NCBI GenBank assembly: GCA_025403435.1
Contig: CM046350.1
Span: 24,181,661 to 24,245,660, forward strand
Direction of reading: 5' to 3'
From: Artocarpus heterophyllus
Lineage: Eukaryota; Streptophyta; Magnoliopsida; Rosales; Moraceae
DNA length: 64,000 nucleotides
Under the pieces are notes generated by a model that had not been told where the DNA came from, made no database searches, and saw only the letters and a list, made by a program, of their open reading frames with translations. Positions 10,490 through 63,189 of this stretch are shown here, in pieces (the stretch's first letter is position 1; every line of letters begins with the position of its first letter). The translations under genes and the position numbers were made by a program.

Positions 10490-10513
10490 AAACTTTCTTT
10501 TGTCTTGAAAACT

Positions 10514-11050: not shown

Positions 11051-11099
11051 TCTTATATATTAGTGTTCAGAAAGATTCTCCACATTCTTTTATTCATTC

Positions 11100-12301: not shown

Positions 12302-12384
12302 AATGATTTGCTTTAGAAGTTCTTCCTGAATAGCATCATCAATGATTCAAGTGTAAAAACACTCATCATTGTTTTGAAATTGCT

Positions 12385-12548
12385 TTTCAATATGGAAAAC
12401 ATTCACTTCAAGAGTCATATTTCCAAAAGAATTTTCATGAGACCATTTCAATAGTTAATGAGAGCATTTCAATATGGAAAACATTCACTTCAAGAGTCAT
12501 ATTTCCAAAAGAATTTTCACGAGACCATTTCAATAGTTAATGAGAGCA
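12385..12548. repeat. 82-bp tandem duplication in element B
   Basis: Copies 12385-12466 and 12467-12548 are almost identical (one difference noted, 'cttcaag...catgag' against 'cacgag'). The repeat starts 'tttcaatatggaaaacattc'. It lies between the protease and RT remnants. Confidence 0.85.
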
Positions 12549-12559
12549 TTACCGTATCT

Positions 12560-14400: not shown

Positions 14401-15234
14401 AAACATAATACATGAAGGAGTTAAAGTGCGAGTCAGGTGCATGTAATCTTTAATCAACATTCTTTGAGGATTCTCATCGAAATTCGCCACTGCAAATGAA
14501 TTTGAAAGAACTGGAGAATGTGGAGAAGAGTTCAATGATTTTTCACTAGGGTTTCTTAAGTTAGAAGCTTTAGCAAATTGGCCTAGTTTGTCTCTATGTC
14601 GAAGTATTGACCCTAAGCATTTTTTTAATTTTTTATATTATTTATAAGGGAAAGACAAGATGCTAAGCTTTTCTTTATTCTGGGAGAATAAAGTAGTGAG
14701 CGAAAAGCATTCGTCTCATTTATTTTGTAGATCTTGAGAATTATATGCTTTAAGGATATTGCCAGGAAAGATTAATGGGGCGAAGGCTTCTTAAAAACCA
14801 ACCTTCTAGTTAAAACTACGTTCTTGCAATGACTGGTGTTGGGAGAATAACCAAAATTAACTGGCTATGGGAAAGGTTTTTGAACCAATACCAGCCTCTA
14901 TACAGAACTTCCTCAAAGTATACTTTTCATAAAACCACAATTTATTTTATTAAAATCCTAGCTCTAAAGTTTTATTAAGTTTTATTTCTAAGTTCACGAC
15001 CTAAATCTAAACCTAAAACAAACAAACAACAATATTATACAAACTATAATTAAAAAGAAAATATTTTTTATTTTTTAGATTTTTTATTTTTTATTTGTTT
15101 CAATTTTTTTTACAATTGATGTACTAAGTGAAACACACAAATATTGAAAATAATATTTACAAATGATAGGGATAGATCACTTATCTGTTTTCCTGCTTAA
15201 TTTCGTAATCTGAAAAAGTAATGGCACCTCTCTA
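14401..15234. other. Element B 5' leader region
   Basis: This lies between the 5' LTR/PBS and gag in element direction. It holds decayed gag N-terminal sequence at about 14400-14600 and AT-rich leader beyond it. No other gene is visible. Confidence 0.5.
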
Positions 15235-15256
15235 GAAATAGCACCAAATTTTTGGT
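15235..15256 (-). other. Degenerate primer binding site of element B
   Basis: On the minus strand it reads roughly TTTGGTGCTATTTCTAGAGA. It differs at several positions from the TGGCGCCGTTGCCGGGGA site of the related element at 33068-42119. It abuts the LTR start at 15257. Confidence 0.5.
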
Positions 15257-21370: not shown

Positions 21371-22320
21371 CCAGAAAAGGTGTAATTTTTCCAGTGCAGT
21401 TTTAATTTTATTTTTGAGACGATTTTGAGAAACATTAAATTTGGATATGACCGAAAATATAAAGTATTCGATTCATATAGGATTGAAGACTTGAAGATGG
21501 ATATTACATGAAGAAGGATACAGCTTGAGGATTCAAGGATGAAGAATCGATAAATGTCTCGATTATTCTCTTGTAATCTTAGTTTTCTATTCTCTAGGGT
21601 GGAACCATAATATTACGGTTACTATTATTTTGCTTGTAGCTTTGCTTGATTGCTTTGCTTGTCTGCAATATAATATGATTTACCATGTATATTGATAACA
21701 TGTCATATAGAATAGGGAGTGCCGCTCATATTAAAATTGTTCATGCATAATTTTAAAATAAAACCTTGACTTCAAAAGATTGAGTGTGAGAAGGTTTTCG
21801 AAGAGAGGACCTAAGGCCTCCATCGTTGCTCCATAGGAAGAACATGGTGGTCCCGACCCCTAGAAAGGGATTTCTATCATGTACCAGATTGGATCTCTAA
21901 AAGGATAAGGTATTTTAGTATGATTTATGGTTGCACACCCCTAGGTGGTGATTATAAATCATGGATAAAATATTGAAACGGTGGTTATACATTCACGTTG
22001 ATTTTATTATTAACCTCCCCTAGGAGCTCTGTTAATAAAATTAATGGCCAAAGAAACGATTATTAGTATATGTTGGATCATACGGGTCTTGGATGACATA
22101 CATTAATCAAGAGGGGATCCGTGTTCCTGATTGAATTTGGCATGACTCCCCTAGGAGCTTGTTGAATTCTGAGTTGGGAATTATCGTTGTAAGGTTGTGA
22201 TGTTTTCAAGGTTTTGACACATAAACGCATTTGTATTATTTTACATGATTGTGTTATCTTACTAAATTATTAAATATGTTTGCTTATGTTTGGTATATGA
22301 TTCTTTATTGTAGATTGAAA

Positions 22321-23481
22321 ATGTCTAAAAACGCTTTATCATCGATACTTGACAAAAACCAATTAACCGGTGAGAACTATAATGATTGGAAACGGAACCT
22401 AGACATCGTACTTTCCTTTAAGAAACTGAAATATGTTCTAACAACTCCTTGTCCTCCCGAGCCTACGGGAGACTCAAGTAATGAGCAATTCCAAGCGTAC
22501 GACCGCTGGAAAGATGCTAATGATCAAGCCCGCTGCTATGTTATGGCCAGCATGAACAACGTGCTGCAGGCTCAACATCAGGATTATGAGACTGCGAAGC
22601 AGATCTTGGATAATCTTAAGGATATGTTCGGAGGCCAGGCCATAACAAAGCGGCAAGGGGCGCTTCAGAAACTCTTAAACTGTAGACAGAGACCGGGGAC
22701 ATCTGTAAGGGAGCATATGATGTTGGTCATGGGTTACCTCGCTGAGGCTCAAACCAATGGAGCCGACATCGATGCTGAAACTCAAATGACTATGGTCTTT
22801 GAGACTCTGTCTAAGGAATTTATTCTGTTTAGAGCTACTTTTAATTTAAGCAATAGACGGGATATGACCTTAACAGAACTGATGAAACAGTGACAGGAGT
22901 TTGAACTGCTAATCAGGGAGTCTCCTGCTGGTGGTGAGGCCAATATAGTAGCTGCTTCTGGTTCCAATCCTAACTCTGAGAATGGAAAGAAGCAACGGGC
23001 CAAGAGTGGGAATTATTCTATTCCTGCTGCTACCAAGAGCAAGAAGAAGAAGAAGAAGAACCCAAAGAAGCTTAAGTGCTTCTTCTGTGGTAAGGTCGGG
23101 CATATAAAGAAGCATTGCAAGGACTTCCTTTCCGAGGGAGGTAGGTGTGATCTTCTATATTTAGAAACTTGTTTGGTTGAGGAATCCATTGACATCTGGG
23201 TCATAGATTCTGGTGCAACTAATCATGTTTGTGTTTCTCTGCAGGGATTCAAAGAAACGAGAAGTCTACTTTGTGAAGACTTAACGCTTCGGATGGGCGA
23301 TGGATCCTTGGTCTCAGCGGAAGCAGTGGGAGATGTCCATCTTTATTTTGATAAATATAGGAATTTAATTTTGCGAGATTGTTTTTATGTTCCTAAATTT
23401 AAAAGGAATTTAATTTCTGTATCTTCTTTATTTAAAGACTCCTACGTGTTATCTTTTAATGAAAAAAGTGGTGATTCGTAA
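22321..23481 (+). pseudogene. Element A gag, zinc knuckle and protease
   Basis: The likely start is ATG 22321 (MSKNALSSIL). The ATG at 22249 gives only an odd hydrophobic extension. The Gag core contains LTGENYNDWKRNLDIVL and a UBN2-type region up to TGA at 22891-22893. The same frame continues with a Lys-rich stretch, a CCHC knuckle (CFFCGKVGHIKKHC, RNA binding) and a protease with DSGATNHV. The frame then closes at 23481 after a frameshift in an A-run at about 23461-23467. One stop and one frameshift disable the polyprotein. Confidence 0.92.
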
Positions 23482-26275
23482 AAACAAATTTTTTATCTGT
23501 TCTGGATGGATGCAAAATAATCTATATTTTATCAAATCTAAGATGGACTTCTTGCTTAATGCTGAGATAAATGATAATGACTCAAAAAGACTTAAAACTT
23601 CTCACTCTAATAAGACTTATCTTTGGCATTTGCGCCTTGGCCATATTAACCTGAATAGGATTCAAAGGTTGGTAAGGGATGGACCTTTAAGTCACTTAAA
23701 GGTGGAATCTATACCTCAATGTGAATCTTGTTTGGAGGGTAAAATGACCAAAAGACCATACGTGTCTAAGGGCAATAGGGCCGAAGGGGTTCTAGAACTT
23801 GTGCATAGTGATGTTTGCGGACCAATGAACATCCGGGCACGAGGAGGGTATGAGTACTTTGTCACTTTTATTGACGATTACTCAAGATATGGGTATGTGT
23901 ACCTAATGCACCACAAAAGCCAAACTTATGATAAGTTCAGGGAGTTTCGGGCTGAAGTGGAAAAGCAATTAGGTAGACCCATAAAGGCACTTCGATCTGA
24001 TCGAGGTGGGGAATACCTTTCTGATGAGTTCTTGGGACACTTGTTAGAGAATGGGATTTTATCCCATTTGACTGCCTCGGGCACTCTGCAGCAGAATGGC
24101 ATAGCGGAGAGAAGGAATAGGACTTTGTTGGACATGATTCGGTCCATGATGAGTTATTCATCATTGCCTTTATCCTTTTGGGGATATGCACTACAAACCG
24201 CATGTTATCTTTTGAACAATGTGCCTTCAAAATTGGTCCCTAAAACTCCTCACGAGTTGTGGACAAGATGGAAGACATCCTTAAACCATATTCGTATACG
24301 GGGATGTCCAGCTCATGTCTTGTTTAAGGATCCGAATAAGTTGGAAGCACGTTCGGAAGTTTGCGTGTTTATAGGATATCCAAAAGGGACTAAAGGGGGT
24401 TATTTTTATAACCCTAAGGAAAATAAAGTCGTGGTTTCAACTAATGCGACTTTCCTTGAGGAGAGTTACATGGATGACTTTAAACCTCGAAGCAAAGTGG
24501 TGCTTGAGGAGTTAAGGGGTGATTCGTTCACTCCAGAGGTTCCGAACGAAACCATTCCGATCGGTGTAGAAAAACCAAACAAACCTGAACAACACTCTCA
24601 GGGGCTTCGGCGTAGTGGGAGGATCAGGTGTCAACCTAAAAAGTATATGTTCAATGGGGAGGTCTTCTTGGCTGAACCGGATGAACATGACAGGGATCCT
24701 TATACTTACGCAGAAGCTATGGAGGATGTTGATTCAAGACTCTGGACAGAGGCCATGAACATAGAGATGAAGTCTATGGAGACTAATCAGGTCTGGGAGC
24801 TTGTGGATCTTCCTGAAGGGGTAAAACCCATAGGGTGTAAGTGGATCTACAAGAGGAAAAGAGGAATGGATGGAAAGGTTGAAACCTTTAAGGCTAGACT
24901 GGTAGCTAAGGGTTATACGCAAAAGGAAGGAATCGATTATGAGGAAACCTTTTCGCCTGTAGCCATGCTTAAGTCCATCCGGATTCTCTTGTCCATAGCT
25001 GCCGCTCTCGAGTATGAGATTTGGCAGATGGATGTCAAGACGGCTTTTCTGAATGGCTATCTTGATGAGTCCATTTATATGGAACAACCAGACGGGTTCA
25101 AGGTCGCGGGTCAAGAGGGGAAGGTTTGTAAGCTGCTAAAGTCAATTTATGGACTTAAGCCGGCATCCCGTTCTTGGAACATAAGATTTGATCAAGTGAT
25201 CAAGACTTATGGGTTCTCACAAAATGTGGATGAACCATGTGTTTACAAACACATAAAGGATGGGAATGTGGTTTTTCTACTGCTATATGTAGATGACATT
25301 CTGCTAATTGGCAATGACGTTGGGGCGTTGTCATCGGTCAAATTATGGTTGACCAAGCAGTTTGACATGAAGGACTTAGGTGAGGCTAATTTTGTTCTCG
25401 GTATCTAGATCATTCGGGATAGGAAGAACAAAATGATAGCTTTGTAACAGGCCGGCTACATAGATAAAATTCTCAGGAGGTTTGCAATGCTGGATTCCAA
25501 GAAAGGTGGGCAACCATCTAGGTCTGGAATTACTCTTTCTAAGAAAGACTCTCCAAAGTCTTGTGAAGAAAGAGAATACATGAAGAAGGTGCCTTATGCT
25601 TCGGCAGTGGGTAGTCTCATGTATGCCATGCTTTGCACTCGACCGGATATTAGCTATGCGGTCGGGATTGTAAGTCGATTTCAGGCGGATCCAGGACCGA
25701 ACCATTGGGTTGCGGTAAAGCATATTTTCAAGTACCTGAGAAGGGCTCGAGGGTATATGCTTGTGTATTCGGGTGAGGACTTGACTCCTCTAGGATACAC
25801 TGATTCGGATTTTCAATCCTGTCTGGATTCTAGGAAATCGACTTCAGGGTTTGTGTTTACTCTGAGTGGCGGTGCCATCAGTTGGAGAAGTGCAAAGCAA
25901 GATTGCCCTTCAGATTCAACGATGGAGGCCGAGTATGTGGCAGTTAGTGATGCTTCGAAAGAAGCAGTGTGGCTCCACAAGTTCCTTGGGGATCTTGAGG
26001 TAGTTCTTGGTATGGATAAAGCGATATCACTGTATTATGATAACAGTGCAGCGGTAGCTAATGCTAAGGAACCAAGATTTCACAAGAAGAGTAAGCATAT
26101 TGATCAGAAGTATCATGTGATAAAGGAATTTGTTGAGGGCGGGCATGTCACGGTGTACAAGATCGCGTCAGAGGACAATTTAGCTGATCCATTTATGAAG
26201 ACACTTACTGGGAGAGTCTTCGAGAGGCATGTGGAAGCTATGGGGATGCGAAATTTGCTGTATTTACTCACTTAG
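23459..26275 (+). pseudogene. Element A integrase, reverse transcriptase and RNase H
   Basis: The integrase zinc domain (HLRLGHIN...CESCLEGK) is followed by the catalytic core ([28 protein letters not shown]). RT carries [12 protein letters not shown] and the catalytic [11 protein letters not shown]. The frame stops at TAG 25406-25408 and again at TAA 25445-25447, then reopens from 25487 with the RT end and RNase H (YTDSDF, DSRKSTSGF, EAEYVA, DNSAAVANAKEP). Apart from the two stops the frame is continuous, so this was a functional Ty1/copia pol until recently. Products would act in virus-like particles and, for integrase, in the nucleus. Confidence 0.95.
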
Positions 26276-31915: not shown

Positions 31916-33067
31916 ATTACCCTATAAAAATAACACTAAAACCCAATTTCAATTATTATAAAAAAAACCACATCTAAAAAAAAGCCAACAAAAAAACTAA
32001 TATACAATTTCAATTATAAGAAAAAAAAAAAGAAATACTCAAAAGGCTTGTATACTTTGTCTAAAAACTATTTTTATCCCTCTTATTATACAAATACTTA
32101 AAACACTCATTGTGTTCATAAAAACACTCAAAATATCACCTAAAGTAATTAAATTTTCAAAATATCGATTTTATGCTTCCAAAACACTCAAATTAAAAAG
32201 TTTAAAATGATTGAAGCATGTATTTTGTCTAAATACCTTTTTACCCCTCTTATATATAAAAACACTCAAAATATCACCTGAAACAATTAAATTTTTGAAA
32301 TATAATATTACACTTCCCAATTGATGTTAAATGTTGTTTTAAATATGAATTAATTAAAAAATTAAATTAAAAATTAATATATTCAAATAAAAATTTCAAT
32401 CAAGCAAATGCTTCAATAATTTTAAAAGTATTTAATTTCTCTAGATTGATTTTATTTAATACTTTGGTTTAGAAATGTTTTAAATTGTACTTAATAAAAG
32501 TTGGGAAGCATAATCTTGTCATTTAAAAAAAAATTAATTGCTCCACCATCTATTTTGGCCCCAATTTCACAAACAAAGGGGTATTTTGCATAACAAAAGG
32601 GTAAGTGTATAAAAACATGCGAAAAATTGGAGGGATTTTTAAAAATGACCTTTTGAAAAAAAAAAATTTGGTCAATGACCTCTTTTTTTTTTAACAGTTT
32701 TTGGCACAAAAAAAAAGGCTTTTTAGACATCAAAACGGTTCTAGTTTTTTTTTTCATCCTGTTGAGGTTTCTTATCCTGCTACAATTATTTTTCTTTTTT
32801 TTTTTGAAAAAAACTGGGACAGTTTACCTGCACAGAAAAGCGTGTTTTTTTGGTTCCAAAAAAAAAAGGGGACTTTTACTCAATTTGAAATTTTTTTTTT
32901 GCCCTTTTGTCAAAATCATCCGAAAATTTGCTTATTATTCCTACAAAAAAAGAAATAAAATAGAGGCTTTGGCTTCAATTCGGCAGTGGGATTGGTGTAC
33001 CACCTATGTCATAGATACAAGTACAATACATAAAGAGCACTCTTATTTGGCTCGATGGAGCAGCAGT
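31916..33067. repeat. Compound dispersed repeat, copy 2, left part
   Basis: 32040-32640 matches 28760-29140 and about 32930-33067 matches 29165-29292. Between them lies a homopolymer-rich insert (about 32640-32925, many A and T runs) that copy 1 lacks. The 141-aa and 88-aa ORFs crossing this insert are low-complexity Lys/Phe-rich frames and are not credible genes. The sequence ends at GCAGT (33063-33067), the left TSD of the next element, and continues at 42120. Confidence 0.65.
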
Positions 33068-35227
33068 TGGTCTCGCGTCTATTTACGCATTTTAAACTAA
33101 CCTCAAGTATAAGGTTGTCTCAAGTAATATTTTCTCGGTGAATCCGAGGTCGAACCCACAAGGAAGGATTTATTCAGTTCTAGTACATGTATTATATTAA
33201 CTTTTTCTTTTTATTTAAACTGAAAAATTTGAGGATTAATATTTATTATTCACAGAATGTATTTACAATATTTACACATTTTTTTTACAACATTTTTCAT
33301 TTTTAGATTTTGATAATAAGAAACTTTAATAACAAGAAATGCAATTAATAACTTAAGCAAAGTAACAACAATAATAATGACAATTTAAAGAAGTGAAACA
33401 GCAATAATAACAGGGCTGAGGTTCAAAGGTTCCGTTCTGACAATTATCTTTAATATATTTTAGTTTCTCTTTTTATTTATTAGTTAGTTTAAGTATGCAC
33501 TATGCCATCCTATGTCGACAATAAATTAAGAATTACCAAGCATTTACTGTGCCATTCTATGTCTATAATGCAGCAAAAACACAACTTAATAAATAAGCAG
33601 CATTTCAACATAACTTAACTAAAATAACAACCAAGATAGTGAGTTAAGCATTTACCGAGCCATTCTCTGTCTACGAGTAATCAAGGTCCTCCCAAGCATT
33701 ATCCGTGCCAGTCTATGTCGTCGATAAATCAAAACCGTGATTTTGGCAGAGTTCTAGTTAAGACAATATTGAAATTCTAGGTTTTCTAAGAGAATATTTT
33801 GGCATTACAACAGCTTAGAAAACTAAGAAAAACCAAAAATATTTAAGATAATTTTGCCAGAATTTTCCCCTCTCCCCTCAGCTAAAAGGAAATTTAGAAA
33901 GACATAATTAATAAAGTACTACTAATATTATTAAACATAATTTTTACAACATAAACTAGAAAATATTTTACAAGAAACTAGACTGAAAACTAAAATAAAA
34001 ACTAGACTATAACTATTATAACAGCATTTTTATGCTGCGGAAGGCTCTCTCAACTGAGGCAAAAGCCTCAGTATTTATAGTGATTCGAGATTGCAAACGT
34101 CCATTGCTATTTAATGATCTTCACTGTTGAAAGTTGACAATTTTCAATTATTTGCTTCTTCTCTTCCTCGCGCTGCAGCTAGCCTTCTCGCTCTGAAATT
34201 TTATTTTTCTTCTTTTCCCTTGCTGAGAGTTGTTCTTCATTATGGGTTTTAGCCTTTGGGATTCTGTGTGACGCAGATCATGACAAGACCATAATGGACT
34301 GATCGTGTCTGTTAATCGCACGATCCAACGGCTGTCAGATGCTCGTAAATTGGGCCTAAGTGGGACCAGTGAAAGCGCAATTATAGACCGTCAGATTGGT
34401 CTCGGTATTCGCATCGAATGGCTGAGAGAGAGGCTGCATGTGGTCATGACCGCACGCGATCCAAGACTGTCTGAGACACCCCACTGACACGCTGCAGCTT
34501 GTCGGCGCGTGCGTTATATCTCGACACGTGGACCGCACTTTGAGATTTCGCTGACGCACCGAATGACGCGTTGACACGCGTCTCTTCCTCGGACGGCTGA
34601 GATTGATTTGGCAGTGAATCCAACGGCTCCCATGATGCCACGTGTCCTCTACATTTTGAAATTCAAATTTTTCAAAGATTTTTGATGCATTTGATGTCCG
34701 ATTTTATCCGTTTTGGTGTCGTTTTGCTCCGTTTTTCCTCCAGATTTCAAATCTAAAATTACAAACATACTAATATTAATTATTTTACAACCTTAATATT
34801 TATTAAAAATATTTATTTTAGAATAAAACACACAAAAATAGATAAAAACCCTTAAAATTTCCAGTCTCTTGCGGTTGAGCACAGATATAATTTTTATGAC
34901 TTGGAAATATTTTTTAAAAATTACTAAAAATATAATAAGACATATTTATAGACTTAAAACACACTACCAAACACACTAACACTCAAAATAAAATAACCGC
35001 ATTACTTTTACGGTTTTGACTATTTACAGACTAGACACTTATTTAACACACCAAAATGACTCTAATAATAAAAGCACACTAAAAACGCATTTTTAATCAT
35101 ATTTTCACACCAAGACATAAAAATACTTATTAACACAAAATGCTAATAATTAGAGGATTTAATGAGAAATAAAAGCGTAAACAAATTATTTAAGCTTTAG
35201 AAAATGTACACTTTTATAGTCTCATCA
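33068..35227 (-). repeat. LOG element 3' LTR
   Basis: Near-identical to 39952-42119. The clearest difference is near 34510, where the other copy has about a dozen extra bases. A TATA-like box (minus-strand TATAAATA, 34072-34079) is followed at once by a 7-bp-stem hairpin (34054-34071). Two G-box cores CACGTG (34525-34530, 34639-34644) lie upstream in U3. The ORFs at 34305-34641 are repeated in the other LTR and are shadows of GC-rich U3. Confidence 0.95.
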
Positions 35228-35242
35228 CACCCCCCAACCAGC
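35228..35242 (-). other. LOG element polypurine tract
   Basis: On the minus strand, GGTTGGGGGGTG abuts the 3' LTR start (TGATGAGAC). A G-run immediately upstream of a 3' LTR is the expected plus-strand primer. Confidence 0.75.
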
Positions 35243-36462
35243 TTATTGCTAGTCTCTAGCAACTAAAGCGATAAAACTTAAAACAATTAAAAGATTTTTT
35301 TTTTTTTTTAAACTTGCGATTACTCACTGATTTTTCTCAGGGTTTATCTCATATTCATGCCTCAAAGTAAAGATGCAAACACTAATTAAGTTATGATTCA
35401 TGTCTAGAGTTTGTCAATTATTTAAGATGAATTTTTCCCTATGTGTGTGTGAATTTCTATTACTAATCAATGCATATTAACTAGATAAATTTATATTAAT
35501 ATATCTTAATTTATTTAAATAAATTCTTATAAATTTGTTTTTCATCCCTCTCTCCACTAATGTAGAATAACACCTTGTTAAAGACCTTTAGGACTTTATT
35601 CAGCTTGTAATGTAAGGCTTGGGTCAAAGGTATGATGGAAGATATATTTGAGGCTTAGTTCACCCATAAGACACTTACAAAAATCCCGAACCTTTAAAAT
35701 GTACAATTCAATTCTCAAAGTTTACAATCCCAAACTCGAAATGAAATTTCCTTTGTCAACCACTTTTTATTAATCTTTCTTCTTCTTCTTTTTTTTTTTT
35801 TTGATCTTTTTGTTTTTGTTTTTGTTTTTGTTTTTGTTTTTTTGTTTTTTTTAATAACTGAAGAGTTACGTACATATTTTACAGAGGTAGCAGATATTCC
35901 TAACTCCTCCTAACCTCATAAACCTGAATTCACTTGAAAGAACAGATGTCTTATGAGTGAAAGGTACAAGAAAAGGATTATGAATTAAAAAGGCTAGGCT
36001 AAATATATGGGTAACAAAGAAAATAGAAAATTAAGCACAACGAGGTGACTAGGGATATAAAATGTAAACAGGTTAGCTTTAAAGGCTCAAACGATCCAAA
36101 GATGGCCTAAATTATATCTATAACTTAGTGTTATCTAGGATTTCGTCTCAAGAGGGATTTAAACAAGTTATAAGATTTTATAAAAATAAACCAAATTATA
36201 CTAACATAAACAGTCTCTAAATTAATATAACAAATCATAGTGCAAGATTAAGTGTTTAAATTTTGGAAAAATTTCATCCTAAACATATGGCAAACTAAAG
36301 AAACTAACATAAACTTAAATAATATTTAAACTTTGCCTTAAGTCATGGAATGATATAATCTTGATATCGTCAATGGACAGGAGGCAAATCACCAAAAAAA
36401 ATTTAGATTTTTTTTTTAATTTTTTTTTGAATGCAATGCAAACACACAGTTTTTACAATCAT
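35243..36462. other. LOG element 3' non-coding region
   Basis: No coding signal over about 1.2 kb. It contains a (TTTTTG)n run at about 35808-35850 and long T tracts. It lies between the last hairpin and the polypurine tract. The part nearest the LTR is similar to element B at 5284-5320. Confidence 0.6.
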
Positions 36463-36514
36463 GTAGAAACACGTTTCAAGAATGCTAGTCACTCCATTAC
36501 TCAGCTATTTCTAC
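36463..36514 (-). other. Hairpin motif copy 1 (after LOG ORF)
   Basis: Arms GTAGAAA (36463-36469) and TTTCTAC (36508-36514) are perfectly complementary. Inside are the blocks 'acgtttcaagaa' and 'ttactcagct'. In the minus-strand RNA this reads stem, GCUGAGUAA, variable part, UUGAAACGU, stem. Confidence 0.8.
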
Positions 36515-36519
36515 CAAGG

Positions 36520-36569
36520 TGAAGATGCGTTTTAAGAATAATAAATACTCCTTACCTCAGCCATCTTCA
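36520..36569 (-). other. Hairpin motif copy 2 (after LOG ORF)
   Basis: Arms TGAAGATG and CATCTTCA (36520-36527, 36562-36569) are perfectly complementary, with a sequence unrelated to copy 1's arms. The blocks 'gcgttttaagaa' and 'cctcagcc' match the other copies. Confidence 0.8.
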
Positions 36570-36644
36570 AACTTTTATGCTACAAAAGAAAAATGCAGAG
36601 ATGAGAATTTTACAAACACAAAGAACTTCATTTTCGGACCGTTA

Positions 36645-36687
36645 TCGAGACGCGTTTCAGGCCAAAACCTTCACTCAGCCATCTCGA
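36645..36687 (-). other. Hairpin motif copy 3 (after LOG ORF)
   Basis: Arms TCGAGA and TCTCGA (36645-36650, 36682-36687) enclose 'cgcgtttcaggcc' and 'tcactcagcc'. An inner AAGG/CCTT pairing is possible in this copy, replacing different pairs in the others. Confidence 0.78.
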
Positions 36688-36956
36688 CCTATGAACACAT
36701 GAATCTTAAAGTCTTACAAATAGCACACTCTTTTTTTTTCGCTTGGTTTTTTTTTTTTTTAAACTAGTCCCAGATTCAATCACAAAAGAAAAAAAAAATT
36801 GACACAACCTTCTCCCCCCAACCTAGATTGAACACTGTTCCAAAGTTTAACAAGATTAAATAAAAAGAGCAACAACATATACTTACCAGAGCGGTTATTC
36901 AAAGACAAAAAAAGACAAAACAACAATGCTGTAAGTAAAACTAAAAGAGGTAGAGT

Positions 36957-37595
36957 TTAGAGAGAAAGATCCCAATCTCGTTTGCGTTTTTCGCAGAACT
37001 TTGATGTTGCAGTGCCCGTTTCAGGATCAATGACGTGCATTTTTTCGAGCAATTCCTCTACAGTAGTGGCAGAGATAAAAATCTTTCTTCCTGACTCATC
37101 AAGAAACTTTTGTTCCACAGCATGATCTAAAAAACTAAGCAAACTGTCAAAGTAACCATTTATATTTAACAAACCAACAGGTTTAGAGTGTAGTCCTAAC
37201 AATTTCCAACTAGCAACGGCAAAAAGTTCCTCTAGAGTTCCTAAACTTCCAGGTAAGGCAATGAAAGCATCAGAAGCAAACTCCATGTCTCTTATTCGCT
37301 CAGGCATGCCTGCAACTATTTTTTCAACACCAATGGTAGGACCACATAAACGACTTTGAGCAAGGACACTTGGAATAATACCTAGAGCTCCAGTACCTCC
37401 AGAACGTCTTCCAGCAGAGACAGTACCCATTAAACCTAGACTACCTCCTCCATAGACAAGGTTTATCTTTTTCGTAGCCAAGACATAGCCTAAATGAAAT
37501 GCATTTTCTATGTAATCAATGCCTCTTCCTGATTTAGAACCACAAAACACACAGATATTGTTGAACTTTAAAGATGACTGGGACGAGGAATCCAT
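36957..37595 (-). CDS. LOG-like cytokinin riboside 5'-monophosphate phosphoribohydrolase carried by a retrotransposon
   Basis: The 212-aa protein is full length for the plant LONELY GUY family (usually about 210-225 aa). Family members release active cytokinin bases and ribose 5-phosphate from cytokinin nucleotides, in cytosol and nucleus. Visible motifs are ICVFCGS (14-20), the nucleotide-binding VYGGGSLGLMG (47-57), MPERIRDM (97-104, keeping the conserved Arg100) and PGSLGTLEE (115-123). The last is a variant of the hallmark PGGxGTxxE, with Gly117 changed to Ser and Glu123 kept. The segment KPVGLLNINGYFDSLLSFLDHAV (138-160) is typical of plant LOG. Host LOG genes have several introns, but this ORF has none, which suggests capture through spliced RNA. 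A TATA-like box lies about 100 nt upstream. Family assignment is firm. Activity is uncertain because of the Ser and other changes near the active site. Confidence 0.93.
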   Translation of the reverse strand: MDSSSQSSLKFNNICVFCGSKSGRGIDYIENAFHLGYVLATKKINLVYGGGSLGLMGTVSAGRRSGGTGALGIIPSVLAQSRLCGPTIGVEKIVAGMPERIRDMEFASDAFIALPGSLGTLEELFAVASWKLLGLHSKPVGLLNINGYFDSLLSFLDHAVEQKFLDESGRKIFISATTVEELLEKMHVIDPETGTATSKFCEKRKRDWDLSL

Positions 37596-37695
37596 GATAG
37601 TTACTAAGACTAAGACTCTTTTTTTTTTCTTCTTTTTTTTTTTTGAATGACTCTATCTTACAAATTCGCTCTGAGAAAAACTTAAGAACTGAAAG

Positions 37696-37706
37696 GATTT
37701 TATAGA
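37696..37706 (-). promoter_or_regulatory. TATA-like box upstream of LOG ORF
   Basis: TCTATAAAATC on the minus strand lies about 100 nt before the LOG ATG. The identical 11-mer precedes ORF2 at 39040-39050. Farther upstream, 'tttgtcaaaag'-type and 'atctgtc'-type short repeats (about 37750-37860 on the minus strand) may be regulatory. Promoter activity is inferred. Confidence 0.6.
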
Positions 37707-38084
37707 CACCTAAAGAGAACGTTGGGTAAAATTAAATAAAGACAGCTGTGATGACAGATAAGGACAGATAAATGTGACACTCCTATAGACAACTTGTACC
37801 TGACAACACTATTTACCTTTTGACAAACTGGACTTTACTGTACAACTTTTGACAAATGGGACTAAATTTTTAAAATTCGAAGTAAAGCTTATCTTACACG
37901 ATACACAAGACACCTACCGAATATAATTATGCATCTGACAAAAGAAGAAAAGTCAAGATATCATTATTATAAGATAAACGGTACAATCACAATTATTAAA
38001 CAACAACTGTACAAATCACACAAAAATAAAAAAATCTTTTTGTTGATGAGATTTTATTCGAGAATGAGTTGAAGAAACTTTTGT

Positions 38085-38132
38085 TCATCAAAACGCGTTT
38101 CCAGAAATTTCGTTACTCAGCCGTTTTGATGA
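38085..38132 (-). other. Hairpin motif copy 4 (after ORF2)
   Basis: An 11-bp perfect stem, TCATCAAAACG with CGTTTTGATGA (38085-38095, 38122-38132), encloses 'cgtttccagaaa' and 'ttactcagcc'. It starts about 104 nt after the ORF2 stop. It is the strongest stem of the set. Confidence 0.85.
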
Positions 38133-38235
38133 TTTTTTTCATTAAAACCATGCTCATACCTCAAATAAATTTTCAATCAATTTTTTTTTTATATTTTTTT
38201 TTTGGACAAACACACAGAGAAACAAAGAAAATACC

Positions 38236-38790
38236 TTACAGACCTTGTTCTGAAGTGGAAGGATCATGAGTCTGTTTTCCATCTAACATTCTCGCAAACT
38301 GAACAGTTGGGTCTTTTAGCGTCAGATTCCCAAGACGTTCTTTTTCTTCATGAAATTGAGGCCAGAGTTGTTTCATAGCCCTCCAGACGTATCCACTTGG
38401 ATGGGACTCAAGAGAAACTCGAAGATCTTTTAAGTTTTCATTCCTAAGACCATTTTTACAGAACTGAATTTTATCTTCCCTATTTCTAGATACGAAACCA
38501 GGTGAGGGACATTTTCCAGAACAAGTTTGATGAGAACATTTATGACATTTTGACTCCATACAACGAGCTCTTCTTTTTCTAGCACACAGACTTGTACCCA
38601 TACCAGGCAAGCCTACATTATTTACATCACTTGAACGAGCAAGACCTTCTATGTACATCTTGATATCAGTAGGAAGCTTAAAACGTGAAAGTACCCAAAG
38701 ATGAGTGACTCTAGTTTTATACTTCTTTCTGATCTCTCTTTGAGAAAGTGAAGGGAAATATTTCTTTAAGTGCTCATATTTCAGATCCAT
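38236..38790 (-). CDS. ORF2: basic Cys-rich protein, possible zinc-binding nucleic-acid-binding protein
   Basis: 184 aa with no family I can name firmly. The centre has a basic run (ARKRRAR, 70-76) followed by a dense cluster: Cys77, Cys82, Cys85, His88, Cys90, Cys94 and later Cys111. The spacing C-x2-C-x4-C-x3-C could bind zinc. A basic nuclear-targeting-like run leading into a small Cys cluster is also the arrangement of the Cys-rich nucleic-acid-binding proteins of carlaviruses and relatives. That is a motif-level resemblance only, and a host origin is equally possible. It is not a Gag knuckle (CCHC spacing is absent). The ORF is intact, in sense orientation between ORF1 and LOG, with its own TATA-like box about 250 nt upstream and a CT-rich leader. 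Confidence 0.7.
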   Translation of the reverse strand: MDLKYEHLKKYFPSLSQREIRKKYKTRVTHLWVLSRFKLPTDIKMYIEGLARSSDVNNVGLPGMGTSLCARKRRARCMESKCHKCSHQTCSGKCPSPGFVSRNREDKIQFCKNGLRNENLKDLRVSLESHPSGYVWRAMKQLWPQFHEEKERLGNLTLKDPTVQFARMLDGKQTHDPSTSEQGL

Positions 38791-39039
38791 GATTGAGAAA
38801 TTGAGATTCTTGAGAGTGAATTGAAAGCTTTAAGAGAGAGTTCGAGAGAGAATTGTGAAGATTTTCGTGGAAGCAGAAGAAAAGAAGATTGAAAAGTGTT
38901 TGAAAGATTGGAGAATTTTGAAAGAGTTTTGAAGAATTTCTTGGAATTTTAGCGAGAAGACAGAGAAAATTTGAGAGAGAGAATAAGAAATTCAGAGAGA
39001 GAAAGAACAAAGATTTCTGAGCTGGGATGCACAGTAACA

Positions 39040-39050
39040 GATTTTATAGA
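39040..39050 (-). promoter_or_regulatory. TATA-like box upstream of ORF2
   Basis: TCTATAAAATC on the minus strand, identical to the box before LOG. Downstream is a CT-rich leader (about 38930-39010 on the minus strand), typical of plant 5' UTRs. Upstream in element direction lie repeated GTCTGAGTAA (39151-39160 and 39085-39094) and a related GTCTGAACA (39066-39074). The overlapping 78-aa ORF at 38774-39010 is probably leader sequence. Confidence 0.6.
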
Positions 39051-39245
39051 CAAGGGGTGGACTTCTGTTCAGACACGGGGAAGCTTACTCAGACGCACGT
39101 GAGAGTAATGGGCTGAACTCAAATGGGCCAAAGAAAAGTAACCTAACAGATTACTCAGACATGAAAATATTTTTGTATTTTTTTGAGTTTTTTTTTTAAT
39201 TTTTTTTTTGAGATCTAAAATTCAGAAAAATTCATTGAAGATTAT

Positions 39246-39337
39246 TTCATTAAAATGCGTTTCTAGAGGCCGTTGATACAAAAATACCAACTAATCGTGC
39301 TGATTATAACCTCCATAATTTCTACCATGTTAATGAA
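39246..39337 (-). other. Hairpin motif copy 5 (after ORF1)
   Basis: Arms TTCATTAAAATG (39246-39257) and CATGTTAATGAA (39326-39337) pair with one mismatch. The 'gcgtttctagaggcc' block is conserved, but the 'ctcagcc' block has been replaced. It lies 93 nt after the ORF1 stop. Loop sequence around 39260-39325 aligns with the hairpin of element B (9060-9130), so these two are orthologous copies. Confidence 0.78.
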
Positions 39338-39429
39338 TTTTTGAAATTATTTTTCTGATTTTTAGGAAAAACAAAGAAAATAAAGATACGACAAACACAA
39401 GGAAAAAAAAAATAAAGACAATACAAACA

Positions 39430-39867
39430 TTAATCTATAACTATGATTTCAGTTTCTGGTTCGGAGTCAGAATCGTCAATGTGGATGACTGTTGGAAGAG
39501 ATGCTCTAAACCTTCCCAAAAGATAGCACTCCCAAAAAGTTAAGTTGCCAGTAGCTGCAAAGAATCTTTGCTGAAATTCTTCTTCATCCATGAGATCATA
39601 CATAAGGTCATCCATAGTGTCACCCACAGTGTCACCCATCACCACATCCTCAGGTTCTTTAAAAACTTCATTTTCACATTCAGCCTCAAAATTTGAAATG
39701 TTTGCTTCAAGAGATTGGTCAGAGACATTCACAGGATGGTTGTCAACCTTGGGTGGAACATTCGAATCAAAAGAATTAGCCAAATCAGCCAAGGGATCAA
39801 CAAACGTTCCTGAAGTATTGCTCTCAACAAAATTCACTTCACACTTTCCAGAGGGTGATTGTGCCAT
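39430..39867 (-). CDS. ORF1: acidic protein with C-terminal SUMO-interaction-like motifs
   Basis: 145 aa, no recognised family. It sits in the gag position, starting about 60 nt after the PBS. It is strongly acidic, with a middle region rich in Asp, Glu and Met (VVMGDTVGDTMDDLMYDLMDEEEF, written here only as an acidic amphipathic stretch at about 75-98). The end contains VIHIDDSDSE (about 127-136), a hydrophobic core followed by acidic and Ser residues, the pattern of a SUMO-interacting motif. A second, weaker EIIVID closes the protein. No zinc knuckle or capsid motif is visible. The frame is intact and in sense orientation. Confidence 0.65.
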   Translation of the reverse strand: MAQSPSGKCEVNFVESNTSGTFVDPLADLANSFDSNVPPKVDNHPVNVSDQSLEANISNFEAECENEVFKEPEDVVMGDTVGDTMDDLMYDLMDEEEFQQRFFAATGNLTFWECYLLGRFRASLPTVIHIDDSDSEPETEIIVID

Positions 39868-39927
39868 GTTAAAAACGTTGAATTAGAAAATGCATGCAGA
39901 TTTCTACGTGAACAGTACTTAATACCT

Positions 39928-39945
39928 TCCCCGGCAACGGCGCCA
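39928..39945 (-). other. LOG element primer binding site
   Basis: On the minus strand TGGCGCCGTTGCCGGGGA lies 6 nt from the 5' LTR end. This is the PBS type known from Athila-group gypsy elements (reported as tRNA-Asp). Its perfect preservation agrees with recent mobility. Confidence 0.9.
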
Positions 39946-39951
39946 AAAACT

Positions 39952-42119
39952 TGGTCTCGCGTCTATTTACGCATTTTAAACTAACCTCAAGTATAAGGTT
40001 GTCTCAAGTAATATTTTCTCGGTGAATCCGAGGTCGAACCCACAAGGAAGGATTTATTCAGTTCCAGTACATGTATTATATTAACTTTTTCTTTTTATTT
40101 AAACTGAAAAATTTGAGGATTAATATTTATTATTCACAGAATGTATTTACAATATTTACACATTTTTTTTACAACATTTTTCATTTTTAGATTTTGATAA
40201 TATGGAACTTTAATAACAAGAAATGCAATTAATAACTTAAGCAAAGTAACAACAATAATAATGACAATTTACAGAAGTGAAACAGCAATAATAACAGGGC
40301 TGAGGTTCAAAGGTTCCGTTCTGACAATTATCTTTAATATATTTTAGTTTCTCTTTTTATTTATTAGTTAGTTTAAGTATGCACTATGCCATCCTATGTC
40401 GACAATAAATCAAGAATTACTAAGCATTTACTGTGCCATTCCATGTCTATAATGCAACAAAAACACAACTTAATAAATAAGCAGCATTTCAACATAACTT
40501 AACTAAAATAACAACCAAGATAGTGAGTTAAGCATTTACCGAGCCATTCTCTATCTACGAGTAATCAAGGTCCTCCCAAGCATTATCCGTGCCAGTCTAT
40601 GTCGTCGATAAATCAAAACCGTGATTTTGGCAGAGTTCTAGCTAAGACAATATTGAAATTCTAGGTTTTCTAAGAGAATATTTTGGCATTACAACAGCTT
40701 AGAAAACTAAGAAAAACCAAAAATATTTAAAATAATTTTGCCAGAATTTCCCCCTCTCCCCTCAGCTAAAAGGAAATTTAGAAAGACATAATTAATAAAG
40801 TACTACTGATATTATTAAACATAATTTTTACAACATAAACTAGAAAATATTTTACAAGAAACTAGACTGAAAACTAAAATAAAAACTAGACTATAACTAT
40901 TATAACAACAATTTTATGCTGCGAAAGGCTCTCTCAACTGAGGCAAAAGCCTCAGTATTTATAGTGATTCGAGATTGCAAATGTCCATTGCTATTTAATG
41001 ATCTTCACTGTTGAAAGTTGACAATTTTCAATTATTTGCTTCTTCTCTTCTTCGCGCTGCAGCTAGCCTTCTCGCTCTGAAATTTTATTTTTCTTCTTTT
41101 CCCGTGCTGAGAGCTGTTCTTCATTATGGGTTTTAGCCTTTGGGATTCTGTGTGACGCAGATCATGACAAGACCATAACGGACTGATCGTGTCCGTTAAT
41201 CGCACGATCCAACGGCTGTCAGATGCTCATAAATTGGGCCTAAGTGGGACCAGTGAAAGCGCAATTATAGACCGTCAGATTGGTCTTGGTATTCGCATCG
41301 AATGGCTGAGAGAGAGGCTGCATGTGGTCATGACCGCACGCGATCCAAGACTATCTGAGACACCCCACTGACACGCTACAGCTTGTCGGCGCGTGTAACG
41401 CACGCTCCAATCATATCTCGACACGTGGACCGCACTTTGAGATTCCGCTGATGCACCGAATGACGCGTTGACATGCGTCTCTTCCTCGGACGGCTGAGAT
41501 TGATTTGGCAGTGAATCTGACGGCTCCCATGACGCCACGTGTCCTTTTTGAATTTTGAATTTTTCAAAGATTTTTGATGCATTTGATGTCCGATTTTATC
41601 CGTTTTGGTGTCGTTTTGCTCCGTTTTTCCTCCAGATTTCAAATCTAAAATTACAAACATACTAATATTAATTATTTTACAAACTTAATATTTATTAAAA
41701 ATATTTATTTTACAATAAAACACACAAAAATAGATAAAAACTCTTAAAATTTCCAGTCTCTTGCGGTTGAGCACAGATATAATTTTTATGACTTGAAAAT
41801 ATTTTTAAAAAATTACTAAAAATATAATAAGACATATTTATAAACTTAAAACACACTACCAAACACACTAACACTCAAAATAAAATAACCACATTATTTT
41901 TACAGTTTTCACTATTTACAGACTAGACACTTATTTAACATACCAAAATGACTTTAATAATAAAAACACACTAAAAACACATTTTTAATCATATTTTCAC
42001 TCCAAGACATAAAAATACTTATTAAAACAAAATGCTAATAATTAGAGGATTTAATGAGAAATAAAAGCGTAAACAAATGAATTAAGCTTTAGAAAATGTA
42101 CACTTTTATAGTCTCATCA
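39952..42119 (-). repeat. LOG element 5' LTR
   Basis: 2168 bp. In element direction it starts TGATGAGACTATAAAAG and ends GCGAGACCA. U3 holds G-box cores at 41536-41541 and 41422-41427. The TATA-like box is at 40956-40963 and the adjacent hairpin at 40938-40955. It would drive the genomic transcript across ORF1, ORF2 and LOG. Confidence 0.95.
40938..40963 (-). promoter_or_regulatory. LTR core promoter with start-site hairpin
   Basis: In element direction, TATAAATA is followed directly by CTGAGGCTTTTGCCTCAG, a 7-bp perfect stem with a 4-nt loop. At TATA plus 8-26 nt it falls at or just before the expected transcription start. The same arrangement is at 34054-34079. Confidence 0.65.
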
Positions 42120-42900
42120 GCAGTCCAGGCAATCATAAGGAGTGCCCCCTCCTCTCATGTAGAGTAAATTAGTCCTAACACTTTCTTTGGTTGTTGGCTT
42201 TAAGCATTTGTTTTTGCACAGTTAGTTTCATACCTCTTTTATTGGGTATAGAGTCCAAATTACCCTCAACCACACTCATAAATAAATCTAAAGTTGATGA
42301 ATTGTTGCCCTATTGTTTCTCCTTTTGCACCCTCTCTCTTTCTATTTCTTCAAAAGTTGAACATCCAATGATCTCCATCACCTTCCCTATCCTGAGGTTG
42401 CATCGATCATCGTCATCGATTATCACTCCGACGAGGTAGATTCGTGCCATCAAACATCCTCTGTAGCACTAATCATCACGAGGCTACATATCTCCGCCAA
42501 TCTCAGGCACCCTCATGCAAGGCTAATCTCCTCTGGTTGTTGTCGATTCTGAATCCAAGCAACAACCAAGCTGCCATTGCGCGACGAGCTCCCATTGACC
42601 TTCTTCTCTGAACTCCTGGCGGATCTACAATCTATAGAAGTTACAAAAATAGTTGTTCTCATGCCTCCTCCATAATGATGCAGATCTCCTTCGGGTTGTA
42701 ACTGATTCTAGAGTGAAGCAACAACCAAGCTGCCATGGTGCAATGAGCTAGTGATGATCCTCCCCTTCGAACTCGCGGCAGATCTGCAAGTCTATGGAAG
42801 TTGAGATAGGTTAATCTCTCATTCATATTGTTATCCACGTCTTGAACTTGTGATGGTAATTAGAAGTTCTACAATATGCTAGAGATCAAGCTATTGTTGA
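42120..42900. repeat. Compound dispersed repeat, copy 2, right part
   Basis: This continues the repeat interrupted at 33067 and matches 29288-29759 ('gtgccccct', 'gtaaattagtcct', 'accctcaaccacactca', 'aaaagttgaacatc'). Beyond the region present in copy 1 it holds a diverged ~160-bp tandem duplication, with 'aagcaacaaccaagctgcca' at 42557 and 42717. The 82-aa ORF at 42191-42439 lies in this repeat and has no recognised features. Confidence 0.7.
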
Positions 42901-52770: not shown

Positions 52771-52849
52771 GCACCTCCAGGGAGGAAATCATATAGAAGA
52801 AGATCATTTTGGAGTGGTGGTCTCAGCTTTATAGCCTGCGGCCACTGAT

Positions 52850-55746
52850 ATGTCATTTACTGACTCGTTCCTTGATTTTGACGCAATAAAGGATTGGTTT
52901 GAGGACAATACCAACGCAGATATGGCCGGGAGGGAAAAGGTTAATGACGAGGTTAATGAGGCAGATTTTTGTTGCAAAACTGTTGTTCAACAACATTTGA
53001 GTAATGAGTCTGACTCAATTGATATTGGGTCTAAGCCAATTTTTGATGAGTCTGGACCAATGGATTGCGGATCCCACTCTGTTGCGAAGGTGATAGGAGG
53101 GGAATGTGAAATCTTAGAAAATGCAAGTTGCCCAATTGAGGATGAGATCAAGGTCAGTTTGGTTTGTGGGTCTGGAAACTCAGTCGGTATGTATGAAAGG
53201 GGTACAAAGTGTGAAGCAACGGATGGGAATGGTGTAAAATGTGAAACAGTGATCGATGAGGGTGGGAGTGACAGTTCAGAGTCTGAGCACGCAAGTACCT
53301 CTTCATCGTCGTCACCTTCTTCTAATTCTGGCTCTAGTGATGATGATGTAGAAGTGGATGAAGAAGAGGATGAGGATAAGGTGGAGGAGATGAAGTTGGA
53401 TATTGAGAAAGAGTTTAACGAGACAGGAGATGTAGAAGAAGGTGAAATAAGGGATGCCAATCAGCAGGACATGGCAAGCAAGACCGATGATGAGGATGAC
53501 AATGTCAACGATAATGATGCAGAGGCAATGGTTGGTTGGAGTGATATTGATGATGCTGACAATGAAGAGGATGGTGGCGGTGCTATGAAAGGACCCATTA
53601 CATCTAAGAACGAGCTTAAGGTAAAAGAAAATTCTTTTTAAAATTTATTCTTCTGGATGATTTGTTTATCGGCAATGTAAAGTTACTCATCTTTGTTTTA
53701 GATGCCACCACAAACGAATATTGTGAAGTGTTTAATAATCTGAGTATTGTGTGCCATGATCTAGGGTTTAATCAGCTTTCATATGCAAGATATAAGTCCG
53801 ACCTTAATGATTTATTTTTGTCAGAGTCGTCTTTGCAACTTTTGGATCTCAATTAACAATGGTATTTTGTTATCTCTTACGAATGCTAGCAACTAATCTA
53901 AATCCAAATTGTGATATTATCTAGTTATTATTCTCTGCATGTGAATTAAAATTTCTGGTAGTTTTGGATCTCAATTAACAATGGTATTTTGTTATCTCTC
54001 ACGAATGCTAGCAACTAATCTAAATCCAAATTGTGATATTATCTAGTTATTATTCTCTGCATGTGAATTAAAATTTCTGGTAGTTTTGGATCTCAATTAA
54101 CAATGGTATTTTGTTATCTCTCACGAATGCTAGCAACTAATCTAAATCCAAATTGTGATATTATCTAGTTATTATTCTCTGCATGTGAATTAAAATTTCT
54201 GGTACATTTTCTTCCGTAAAGTAACAAAATCTAGACATTTTGTGAACCTATGTTATGATTATATTTCTAATCCAAGAATACAATTTTGTGTCTCTCTCTC
54301 TCTCTCTCACTCTCTTTCTCTCTTGCTTTATTATTTAGTGAATTGTATTGCAATTTATAGGATCTTCCTCCAGTTCCTCCAGTGGATGCTACATTATTAC
54401 CACATCATCAAATGTTGCCCGTGGGAGTTGTTTTATCGGTAAGCTCAAGAAAAGGCACAAGTATATATTCTGCAAATAGGCAGAATAAAACTTCAAGTCA
54501 TTGGCATTTGAACAGTTGCAGATGGGATTTCTTATTTTGTTGGCAACATAAATTTAAAACTCTCCATTTGCAATTTTTACAGATCATTGGTACCCAAGTC
54601 ATTGTAGAAGGGATTGAGAAGCATAACCCCCTAAACGATGGTTCTATTCTATGGATAACCAAAAGCAAGTCTCCATTAGGGCTGGTGGATGAAATCTTTG
54701 GTCCTGTCAAACATCCATACTATATAGTGAGATACAATTCCGAAAGTGAAGTCCCTGCTGGGATACATACAGGAACTTTAATCTCTTTTGTTCCAGAGTT
54801 TGCTAGCCATGTACTCAATAACAAGGATATTTACAAGAAGGGTTATGATGCATCCGGGGCAAATGATGAAGAGGTGTCTGATGAAGCAGAATTTTCTGAT
54901 GATGAGAAAGAGGCAGAATACAAGAGAATGCAAAAGATGACAAAAAGAGGCACAAACGACCAGAAACCTAGAAGCATGAACAACAAAATGAATGTCAGAA
55001 ACCAAGATGAGCCATGGAAAAAGGGTAAACAATCACCCCTGGAAACACCAACAAATGTAGGTCCTGTACCACCCAATCAACACCATGGTCATTTCTCAGC
55101 TCTCCCAGCAATGGTTGATCATGGAAATGTTTCTAACTCTTTCGGAGTTGGACAAGGTTTGGTTAGTGGGGCGGGTATACCTCCACCAATTCCACCCATT
55201 ACACAGATGGCTTGTTATAATGCACCTTCAAATGGGGGTTGGGGAAATGGAATGCCGTTTCAACAGCCACAAGGTGCTCTTTTTCCCAATGGCTTCCCAG
55301 TGAATGGCATGCCTTGGCTTTCACTGAACTCTCAGCAATATCCCTTTCAGATGCCTTTTCCGAACACCATGCCTTTTCAACAGCAGGTCGATCCTAGCCA
55401 GAGGTTACTTTCTGCTGCTGTGTTTCCGGGTGGACAATCGAATGCTATACCGGGATCCACAGATCCACAAGGTCTTGTGGGTCCAAATGCCTTCAACCCT
55501 GTGGCATTTGGAATTGGTTTACAACGTCAACCTTCTCAGCCAACCTTAAATGTTGGAGAACAAGGAATTATTCCTAATGGTTTACCCATGGGACAGAACT
55601 CTAACGTGTCACAACCTGGAGGCATTCCGTCAAACAATGAGGCTTCTCAGCAAGTCAATCTAGGTGTTTCTACTCATGGAAGAGGACCATATCGTCGAGG
55701 GGGTGGCCGTTTTGCAAGCGGAAGAGGACGGAAGCAATCTGGGTGA
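52850..55746 (+). CDS. NAF1: H/ACA ribonucleoprotein assembly factor NAF1
   Basis: Three coding exons, 52850-53620, 54361-54438 and 54583-55746, all joined in phase 0 with GT-AG introns, predict 670 aa. NAF1 binds the pseudouridine synthase Cbf5/dyskerin in the nucleus during H/ACA snoRNP assembly and is later replaced by GAR1. Residues 1-257 are acidic, with a Ser/Asp/Glu run (139-183). The Gar1/Naf1 core begins at DLPPVPPVD (258) and contains LPVGVVLS, VIVEGIEKHNPLN, GSILWIT, SPLGLVDEIFGPVKHPYY and RYNSESEV. A tail rich in Pro, Gln, Gly and Asn ends in a Gly/Arg-rich GRGPYRRGGG-type segment. The start ATG opens MSFTDSFLDF after a 5' UTR intron. This is the only conventional host gene in the window. 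Exon borders are from consensus and homology. Confidence 0.93.
53839..54204. repeat. Three tandem 122-bp repeats in NAF1 intron
   Basis: Units 53839-53960, 53961-54082 and 54083-54204 are nearly identical. Unit 1 differs at its first base and at 'ctctta' against 'ctctca'. They lie in the first coding intron and do not touch the splice sites. Confidence 0.95.
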
Positions 55747-63185: not shown

Positions 63186-63189
63186 TCTG

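Follow-up and report, generated by a model that had tools for sequence, protein, structure and literature searches.

How does a long terminal repeat (LTR) retrotransposon that lacks gag and pol come to carry an intact gene of the LOG family, best known for cytokinin-activating enzymes, and is that gene a single captured passenger or part of the element's own equipment? We address this for E1, an element at 33063-42124 (minus strand) in a 64,000-nucleotide stretch of Artocarpus heterophyllus DNA (contig CM046350.1), hereafter the window. E1 is probably a trans-mobilised member, devoid of gag-pol, of the OTA (Athila-like) Gypsy elements, with gag-pol-bearing relatives that carry a post-pol module of two genes, LOG and one encoding a carlavirus-type nucleic-acid-binding protein (NABP). 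A preliminary description of the locus had placed a LOG gene where gag-pol would be expected; the presence of the one and the absence of the other both hold, but LOG is not alone, as the second open reading frame (ORF) belongs to the carlavirus-type NABP family.

The structure is that of an LTR retrotransposon, with target-site duplications (TSDs), LTRs bounded by TG...CA, a primer binding site (PBS) and a polypurine tract (PPT) all present. Its parts, with the basis for each in brackets, are as follows.

33063-33067, no strand: left TSD, GCAGT (read off the sequence, with the LTR alignment)
33068-35227, minus: 3' LTR, TG...CA (LTR alignment)
35228-35239, minus: polypurine tract GGTTGGGGGGTG, adjoining the 3' LTR (by eye)
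36957-37595, minus: LOG-family gene, 212 aa, a single open frame with no introns (ORF, Pfam, PDB, AlphaFold2 model)
38236-38790, minus: ORF2, carlavirus-type NABP, 184 aa, with basic motif and four-Cys zinc finger (ORF, profile, Pfam)
39430-39867, minus: ORF1, 145 aa, acidic (ORF list, family scans)
39929-39945, minus: primer binding site TGGCGCCGTTGCCGGGG (exact 17-mer)
39952-42119, minus: 5' LTR (LTR alignment)
42120-42124, no strand: right TSD, GCAGT (read off the sequence, with the LTR alignment)

The two LTRs are 97.4% identical (56 mismatches in 2155 sites, 3 gap events, K80 distance 0.0265, in an alignment trimmed a few bases inside the bounds given above). At rates in common use, a divergence of 2.65% corresponds roughly to 1 to several million years, so that the earlier wording 'recently moved' applies in a relative sense. 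The PBS-type 17-mer is exact and is the sole match in the window at up to 3 mismatches; we take it to be of the Asp type, that is, the Athila/Tat type, and on that assignment E1 falls with the OTA/Athila Gypsy elements. The duplications, LTR ends, PPT and intact Athila-type PBS that had been read from the locus beforehand are thus borne out by the coordinates and the LTR alignment, as are three open sense ORFs of 145, 184 and 212 aa. The next sense ATG-initiated ORF in the internal region has 42 aa, and in 1000 dinucleotide shuffles a longest ORF of at least 145 aa occurred once and a third-longest of at least 100 aa never. The ORF1 protein had no match in the family scans. Gag-pol domains were absent from a Pfam scan of the three ORFs, and tblastn with 9 open pieces from the gag-pol region of E2, a second element in the window described below, gave zero matches in E1 at E<=0.1; E1 does not encode the gag and pol of an autonomous element.

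The LOG gene is recognizable by several measures. Its product matches Pfam PF03641 (E 2.5e-31), its best PDB relative is At2g37210 of Arabidopsis (2a33, E 1.4e-56), and its AlphaFold2 model (pLDDT 84.2, pTM 0.81) fits 2a33_B to 0.8 A over 179 columns, so that domain and predicted fold together identify the intact, intronless LOG-family protein of the earlier description; against the NCBIfam equivalog NF058542 it scores 102.3, where the cut-off is 300. In the LOG protein CgLOG, whose numbering is used here, Arg99 and Glu122 are proposed to be catalytic and Lys100 lies in the adenine site, and alanine changes in binding or catalytic residues, S19A excepted, removed most activity (PMC4979012). 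The corresponding stretch of E1 LOG reads MPERIRDM...PGSLGTLEE, with Arg99 and Glu122 retained. The other 47 rows aligned with it share 57 columns at 95% conservation, of which E1 LOG departs at three (G117S in PGGXGT, V145I, L186M), and this small number, despite a long branch (below), suggests that the protein has been under constraint.

Relatives of E1 LOG were drawn from a protein search in which the 8000 candidates sharing most words were scored, 7980 passed and the best 120 were listed, a list that may omit other host LOG groups. A midpoint-rooted tree of E1 LOG and 111 of the 120 (9 fused or truncated rows removed) places E1 inside a group of 59 rows (support 100/99), 51 of which end in LxLxL and 8 of which, E1 included, do not. 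The 44 canonical rows, among them the named LOG1, LOG3 and LOG7, are separate (100/100) and contain no LxLxL; 9 further rows without it, 6 from Xanthoceras, cluster with the canonical 44 (100/99). E1 LOG has the longest end branch of the tree (1.27) and a provisional place within the 59-row group. Across the 120 listed relatives, 52 terminate in LxLxL and 65 have a basic stretch within the last 35 residues (e.g. KKRKLDLTLRL), features of the kind known as EAR and NLS (nuclear localisation signal) motifs, here putative. E1 itself ends in KRKRDWDLSL, a degenerate tail short of the full C-terminal LxLxL of an EAR motif. Judged by sequence, E1-type LOGs are a clade of their own apart from canonical LOGs, mostly with a basic stretch and LxLxL tail. 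In this separate, well-supported group, E1 LOG does not look like a canonical LOG lately captured from the host. Three Xanthoceras gene models (P0035-P0037) contain two tandem LOG domains or parts of them, suggesting clustered LOG copies. Sizes of LOG clusters were considered as a proxy for copy number and dropped, as large clusters occur among canonical LOGs as well.

ORF2 carries ARKRRAR followed by CHKC-x4-C-x3-C, the basic motif and four-Cys zinc finger by which carlavirus NABPs are recognized. A search for relatives retained 34 of 46 candidates, with hosts including Xanthoceras, Acer and Citrus, and a 20-row profile built from the family matched 766 of 2976 candidates, the best 120 of which were listed and added Populus and Rhamnella. 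Of 20 members, 18 match Pfam Carla_C4 and 15 Viral_NABP at E<=1; at E<=0.01 each of the two families is matched by 56 of 64 members, these being E1 NABP and 63 of 137 listed relatives. E1 NABP itself has no match to Carla_C4. It groups with P0001 and P0002 (support 100) on a branch of 1.09, long like that of E1 LOG. Its predicted structure is poor (pLDDT 61.3, pTM 0.28), a PDB profile search with our query A1 gave a best E of only 0.36, and a scan of viral contigs with A1 found 59 stretches fitting a pattern, of which none was confirmed. With its family matched in this way and its own Viral_NABP score under the gathering threshold (below), ORF2 is termed carlavirus-type, and not a member of the carlavirus NABPs.

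NABP and LOG occur together outside E1. Citrus P0023 and Acer P0034 are each one gene model with NABP and then LOG, in the order seen in E1. Two further pairs come from contigs of equal size, P0004 (NABP) with P0080 (LOG), both 8723, and P0159 with P0070, both 4511. Other NABP and LOG size matches (734, 905 and 1018) were discarded, since contigs of those sizes cannot hold the two ORFs; they tell us that chance matches of equal size do occur. Predicted NABP and LOG genes are thus adjacent again in other plants.

A second line of evidence comes from E2 (3687-17413, minus strand), an older relative in the same window, with LTR pieces that are 79-82% identical to each other and 72-73% identical to the E1 LTRs in long pieces.

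3687-5279, minus: 3' LTR of E2 (LTR comparison)
8961-9077, minus: C-terminal NABP remnant, 3' of integrase (DNA and protein match)
9052-9138, minus: homologue of the fifth E1 stem-loop copy (alignment to E1 39246-39337)
9854-14160, minus: decayed gag-pol, with pieces of gag, reverse transcriptase and integrase (Pfam on open pieces)
15264-17413, minus: 5' LTR of E2 (LTR comparison)

Four of nine open pieces of E2 were matched, to gag (1.4e-10), reverse transcriptase (2.4e-9), the integrase zinc-binding domain (4.2e-5) and the integrase core (4.5e-12); the reverse transcriptase is broken. About 0.7 kb beyond the integrase core lie the NABP remnant and a homologue of one of the E1 stem-loops described below. 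The remnant aligns at 8975-9022 with the E1 NABP gene (DNA, 86% over 49 bases, E 4e-8) and with the relative P0004 (protein, 46% over 39 aa, E 0.002). Lying past the integrase, NABP takes the place that env would have in an element with gag-pol; E1 looks like a derivative of such an element that has no gag-pol. Taken with the NABP-LOG pairing in other plants, the E2 remnant makes NABP and LOG look like an accessory module situated after pol, not like the product of a single capture event. An insertion of about 2.5 kb is nested in E2 at 5979-8459 (TGTAACGCCCC...GTGTCACA, AAGTT duplications by eye) and is perhaps a solo LTR.

Both genes of E1 also come with candidate expression signals and RNA structures of their own, all on the minus strand.

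36462-36515: stem-loop copy, downstream of LOG (motif definition, alignment, folding)
36519-36571: stem-loop copy, downstream of LOG (same basis)
36644-36688: stem-loop copy, downstream of LOG (same basis)
37696-37708: TGTCTATAAAATC, putative TATA box of LOG, TATAAA starting 109 nt before the ATG (word match)
38085-38132: stem-loop copy, downstream of NABP (motif definition, alignment, folding)
39040-39052: TGTCTATAAAATC, putative TATA box of NABP, TATAAA starting 258 nt before the ATG (word match)
39246-39337: fifth, degenerate stem-loop copy, downstream of ORF1 (aligns with E2 9052-9138; outside the mechanical count)

The 13-mer TGTCTATAAAATC stands 5' of both NABP and LOG and nowhere else in the window; a common word of at least 13 was found in 8 of 1000 shuffled pairs. 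The stem-loop motif (36462-39337, sense strand) consists of a stem of variable sequence around an internal loop that is constant, one side of it reading GCTGAGTRA, or nearly so, and the facing side AAACG; every E1 ORF (ORF1, NABP and LOG) has a copy downstream. A mechanical definition, drawn up after the copies had been seen, finds four (38120, 36678, 36560, 36504) and none elsewhere on either strand of the window; on 2000 shuffles it finds a single copy in 33 and never more. In the four-row alignment 95.8% of cells are paired (35-52% for slid structures) and both sides have changed in 6 of 12 pairs. The four are more stably folded than shuffled sequences (z -2.1 to -2.6), as is the fifth copy, with its degenerate 5' side (z -3.5). 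A model of the motif, R1, scores above 17 bits at these four sites alone; further R1 matches at 11136-11191 (+), 25033 (+) and 35079 (-) were taken as chance. The E2 homologue of the fifth copy aligns with a score of 36, compared with a maximum of 21.5 for shuffled sequences and 25 for the best unrelated site in the window. An Rfam search produced 6 matches, all weak (E as high as 5) and all away from the five stem-loop sites. A hammerhead ribozyme was considered and rejected: the structure has no third stem, reads CTGAGTA in place of the consensus CTGANGA, and is not matched by Rfam. The loop may resemble a bulged-G motif (AGUA/GAA).

Several observations weigh against this account of E1. E1 NABP scores 19.0 against Viral_NABP (E 0.0014), under the gathering threshold of 23; it deviates at 10 of 51 conserved columns, and its differences from P0001 avoid conserved columns weakly (10/75 against 26/109, P 0.056). 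In E1 LOG the PGGXGTXXE motif reads PGSLGTLEE, with one Gly swapped (of the 111 other rows with a readable motif, 2 have PGS as well), and the adenine-site Lys100 is replaced by Ile. The Acer model lacks the zinc-finger stretch and its LOG end is broken off, the Citrus model lacks the middle of LOG, and the pairs P0004/P0080 and P0159/P0070 are each presumed to be one contig from their equal size. A LOG remnant was sought in E2 and none was seen. The E2 stem-loop homologue folds at z -1.58 only, and as the next match of R1 it reaches 16.9 bits (E 0.041) with filters and is unlisted with filters off. Words of the TATA type are frequent in E1, with 23 sites listed, and both the TATA word and the stem-loop motif were spotted by eye before testing. 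What NABP and LOG would do in E1 is read across from their relatives.

One rival is a one-off transduction, in which a non-autonomous element picked up a LOG from its host together with an ORF of no relation to it and carries both as passive cargo. This would agree with the single copy of E1 visible in the window and with the capacity of plant LTR elements to transduce genes (PMC13317346); we consider it unlikely in view of the NABP-LOG order in the Citrus and Acer models, the post-pol NABP remnant in E2, and a LOG group that stands apart from canonical LOGs with its conserved columns kept. Still less credible, to the point of being very improbable, is a coincidental LTR frame, with NABP and LOG as host genes in or beside which retroelement parts have inserted. 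Some relatives are indeed annotated as chromosomal genes, but both ORFs are flanked by LTRs, the TSDs are exact, a PBS and a PPT are present, and the NABP remnant of E2 occupies the corresponding place between LTRs of its own.

A rival of a different kind concerns function and has a real, if lesser, chance of being correct: the LOG-fold protein may no longer make cytokinin and may have another role, for example that of an adaptor for corepressors in the nucleus, by way of its basic and LxLxL tail, or that of a nucleotide hydrolase of other specificity. The tail of the 52 LxLxL-bearing relatives points this way, as does position 100. In a motif count over 117 relatives (111 with a readable motif, 6 without), the 47 LxLxL-tailed rows have Lys100 once and I, L or M in 46, whereas 56 of the 64 untailed rows read Arg-Lys, and in CgLOG, which loses most activity on alanine changes of binding and catalytic residues (S19A excepted), that Lys belongs to the adenine site. 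Against this, the tailed rows keep the catalytic Arg in 43 cases and the EE pair in 45 (63 of the 64 untailed), so that the catalytic pair appears mostly kept and the base pocket changed. A corepressor role is further countered in E1 by the incomplete LxLxL of its ending, WDLSL, and the EAR and NLS readings of such tails are tentative ones.

If E1 is a gag-pol-less derivative of module-bearing elements, its parts might work as follows. The LTR would drive the genomic RNA and ORF1, and internal TATA promoters would express NABP and LOG, the latter belonging, we suppose, to the same post-pol module. NABP could enter the nucleus, bind RNA, or both, blunting silencing and altering host transcription in the manner of carlavirus cysteine-rich proteins, one of which, p12, is described as activating transcription in the nucleus and suppressing silencing (PMC7588395) and as inducing hyperplasia (PMC12172455). 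LOG would act on nucleoside monophosphates, of the cytokinin type or a shifted substrate, and so might favour dividing cells, where new copies would be passed on to descendants. The stem-loops may be cis-acting RNA signals, perhaps NABP sites. A bolder version, which we offer tentatively and regard as doubtful, is that the lineage evolved a two-gene host-manipulation module, with a silencing suppressor and transcription factor shared with carlaviruses, a derived LOG with a nuclear repressor-type tail, a separate promoter for each gene and a repeated stem-loop read by NABP, and that the element thereby reprograms both cell proliferation and silencing much in the way of viruses or gall-formers.

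The accessory genes of plant retrotransposons are mostly of unknown function. For two of those in E1, activities are known from relatives, namely a viral silencing suppressor that induces hyperplasia and a cytokinin-activating enzyme, each directly assayable. Their pairing could reveal the means by which elements of this kind manipulate the plant cell; it would link a gene of plant RNA viruses to a retroelement gene and provide a plant parallel of retroviral accessory proteins.

Elsewhere in the window are a Copia element (22249-26275, +) of four open pieces, the longest of which (23414-25408) matches RVT_2 at E 1e-66; a Gypsy element (59640-63263, -) whose pol ORFs are long and open and match RVP_2, RVT_1, RNase H and integrase; and a probable host gene (52835-55746, +) with a Gar1/Naf1 domain (E 5e-15) in the open stretch 54361-55746. 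Its open stretch 52835-53641 matched no family in the domain scan.

Compared with known systems, E1 is most simply likened to the LARD-type non-autonomous elements, which have LTRs, PBS and PPT without gag-pol, as here; unlike them, it retains three open genes. With the plant enzymes LOG1, 3, 7 and 8 its LOG has the fold and the catalytic Arg and Glu in common, and differs in its separate group, the loss of Lys100, the PGS and the lack of introns, which host LOG genes have; most rows of its group differ also in the basic and LxLxL tail. The carlavirus cysteine-rich NABPs (e.g. p12 of chrysanthemum virus B) resemble the E1 family in the basic motif, the zinc finger and the matches to Carla_C4 and Viral_NABP, whereas the retroelement NABPs lie inside an LTR element, are usually 182-184 aa long and have a common C-terminal part, LGNLTLKDPVCQFIRKLDG, outside the Pfam match of E1 (residues 34-114).

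The preliminary description knew of no described example, yet a LOG family domain in plant Gypsy elements is already on record: YgdH/LOG domains are reported in Gypsy consensus sequences of Citrus sinensis and C. clementina, and in the unfiltered set for Populus trichocarpa (PMC9289625), in agreement with a 2011 report (Steinbauerova et al. 2011, cited in PMC9289625), and these host genera overlap with those of the E1-type relatives. There the LOG is a domain match, the wording 'nucleic acid binding' does not appear, and section 12 of that paper is silent on derivatives lacking gag-pol and on a tail, a promoter or an RNA motif of the kind described here. In open-licence PMC text we found no NABP within a retroelement. 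Other accessory ORFs of plant elements have been described (PMC7264820, PMC11963269, PMC6317226), and Grande gene23 has its own promoter (PMC7264820). Grande gene23, Retand TRP28 and the AlkB of orchid Gypsy elements are, like the E1 module, accessory genes, situated beside pol and with proposed regulatory roles; the ORFs of Retand and Grande run antisense and come from different families, whereas E1 carries NABP and LOG in the sense orientation, without gag-pol.

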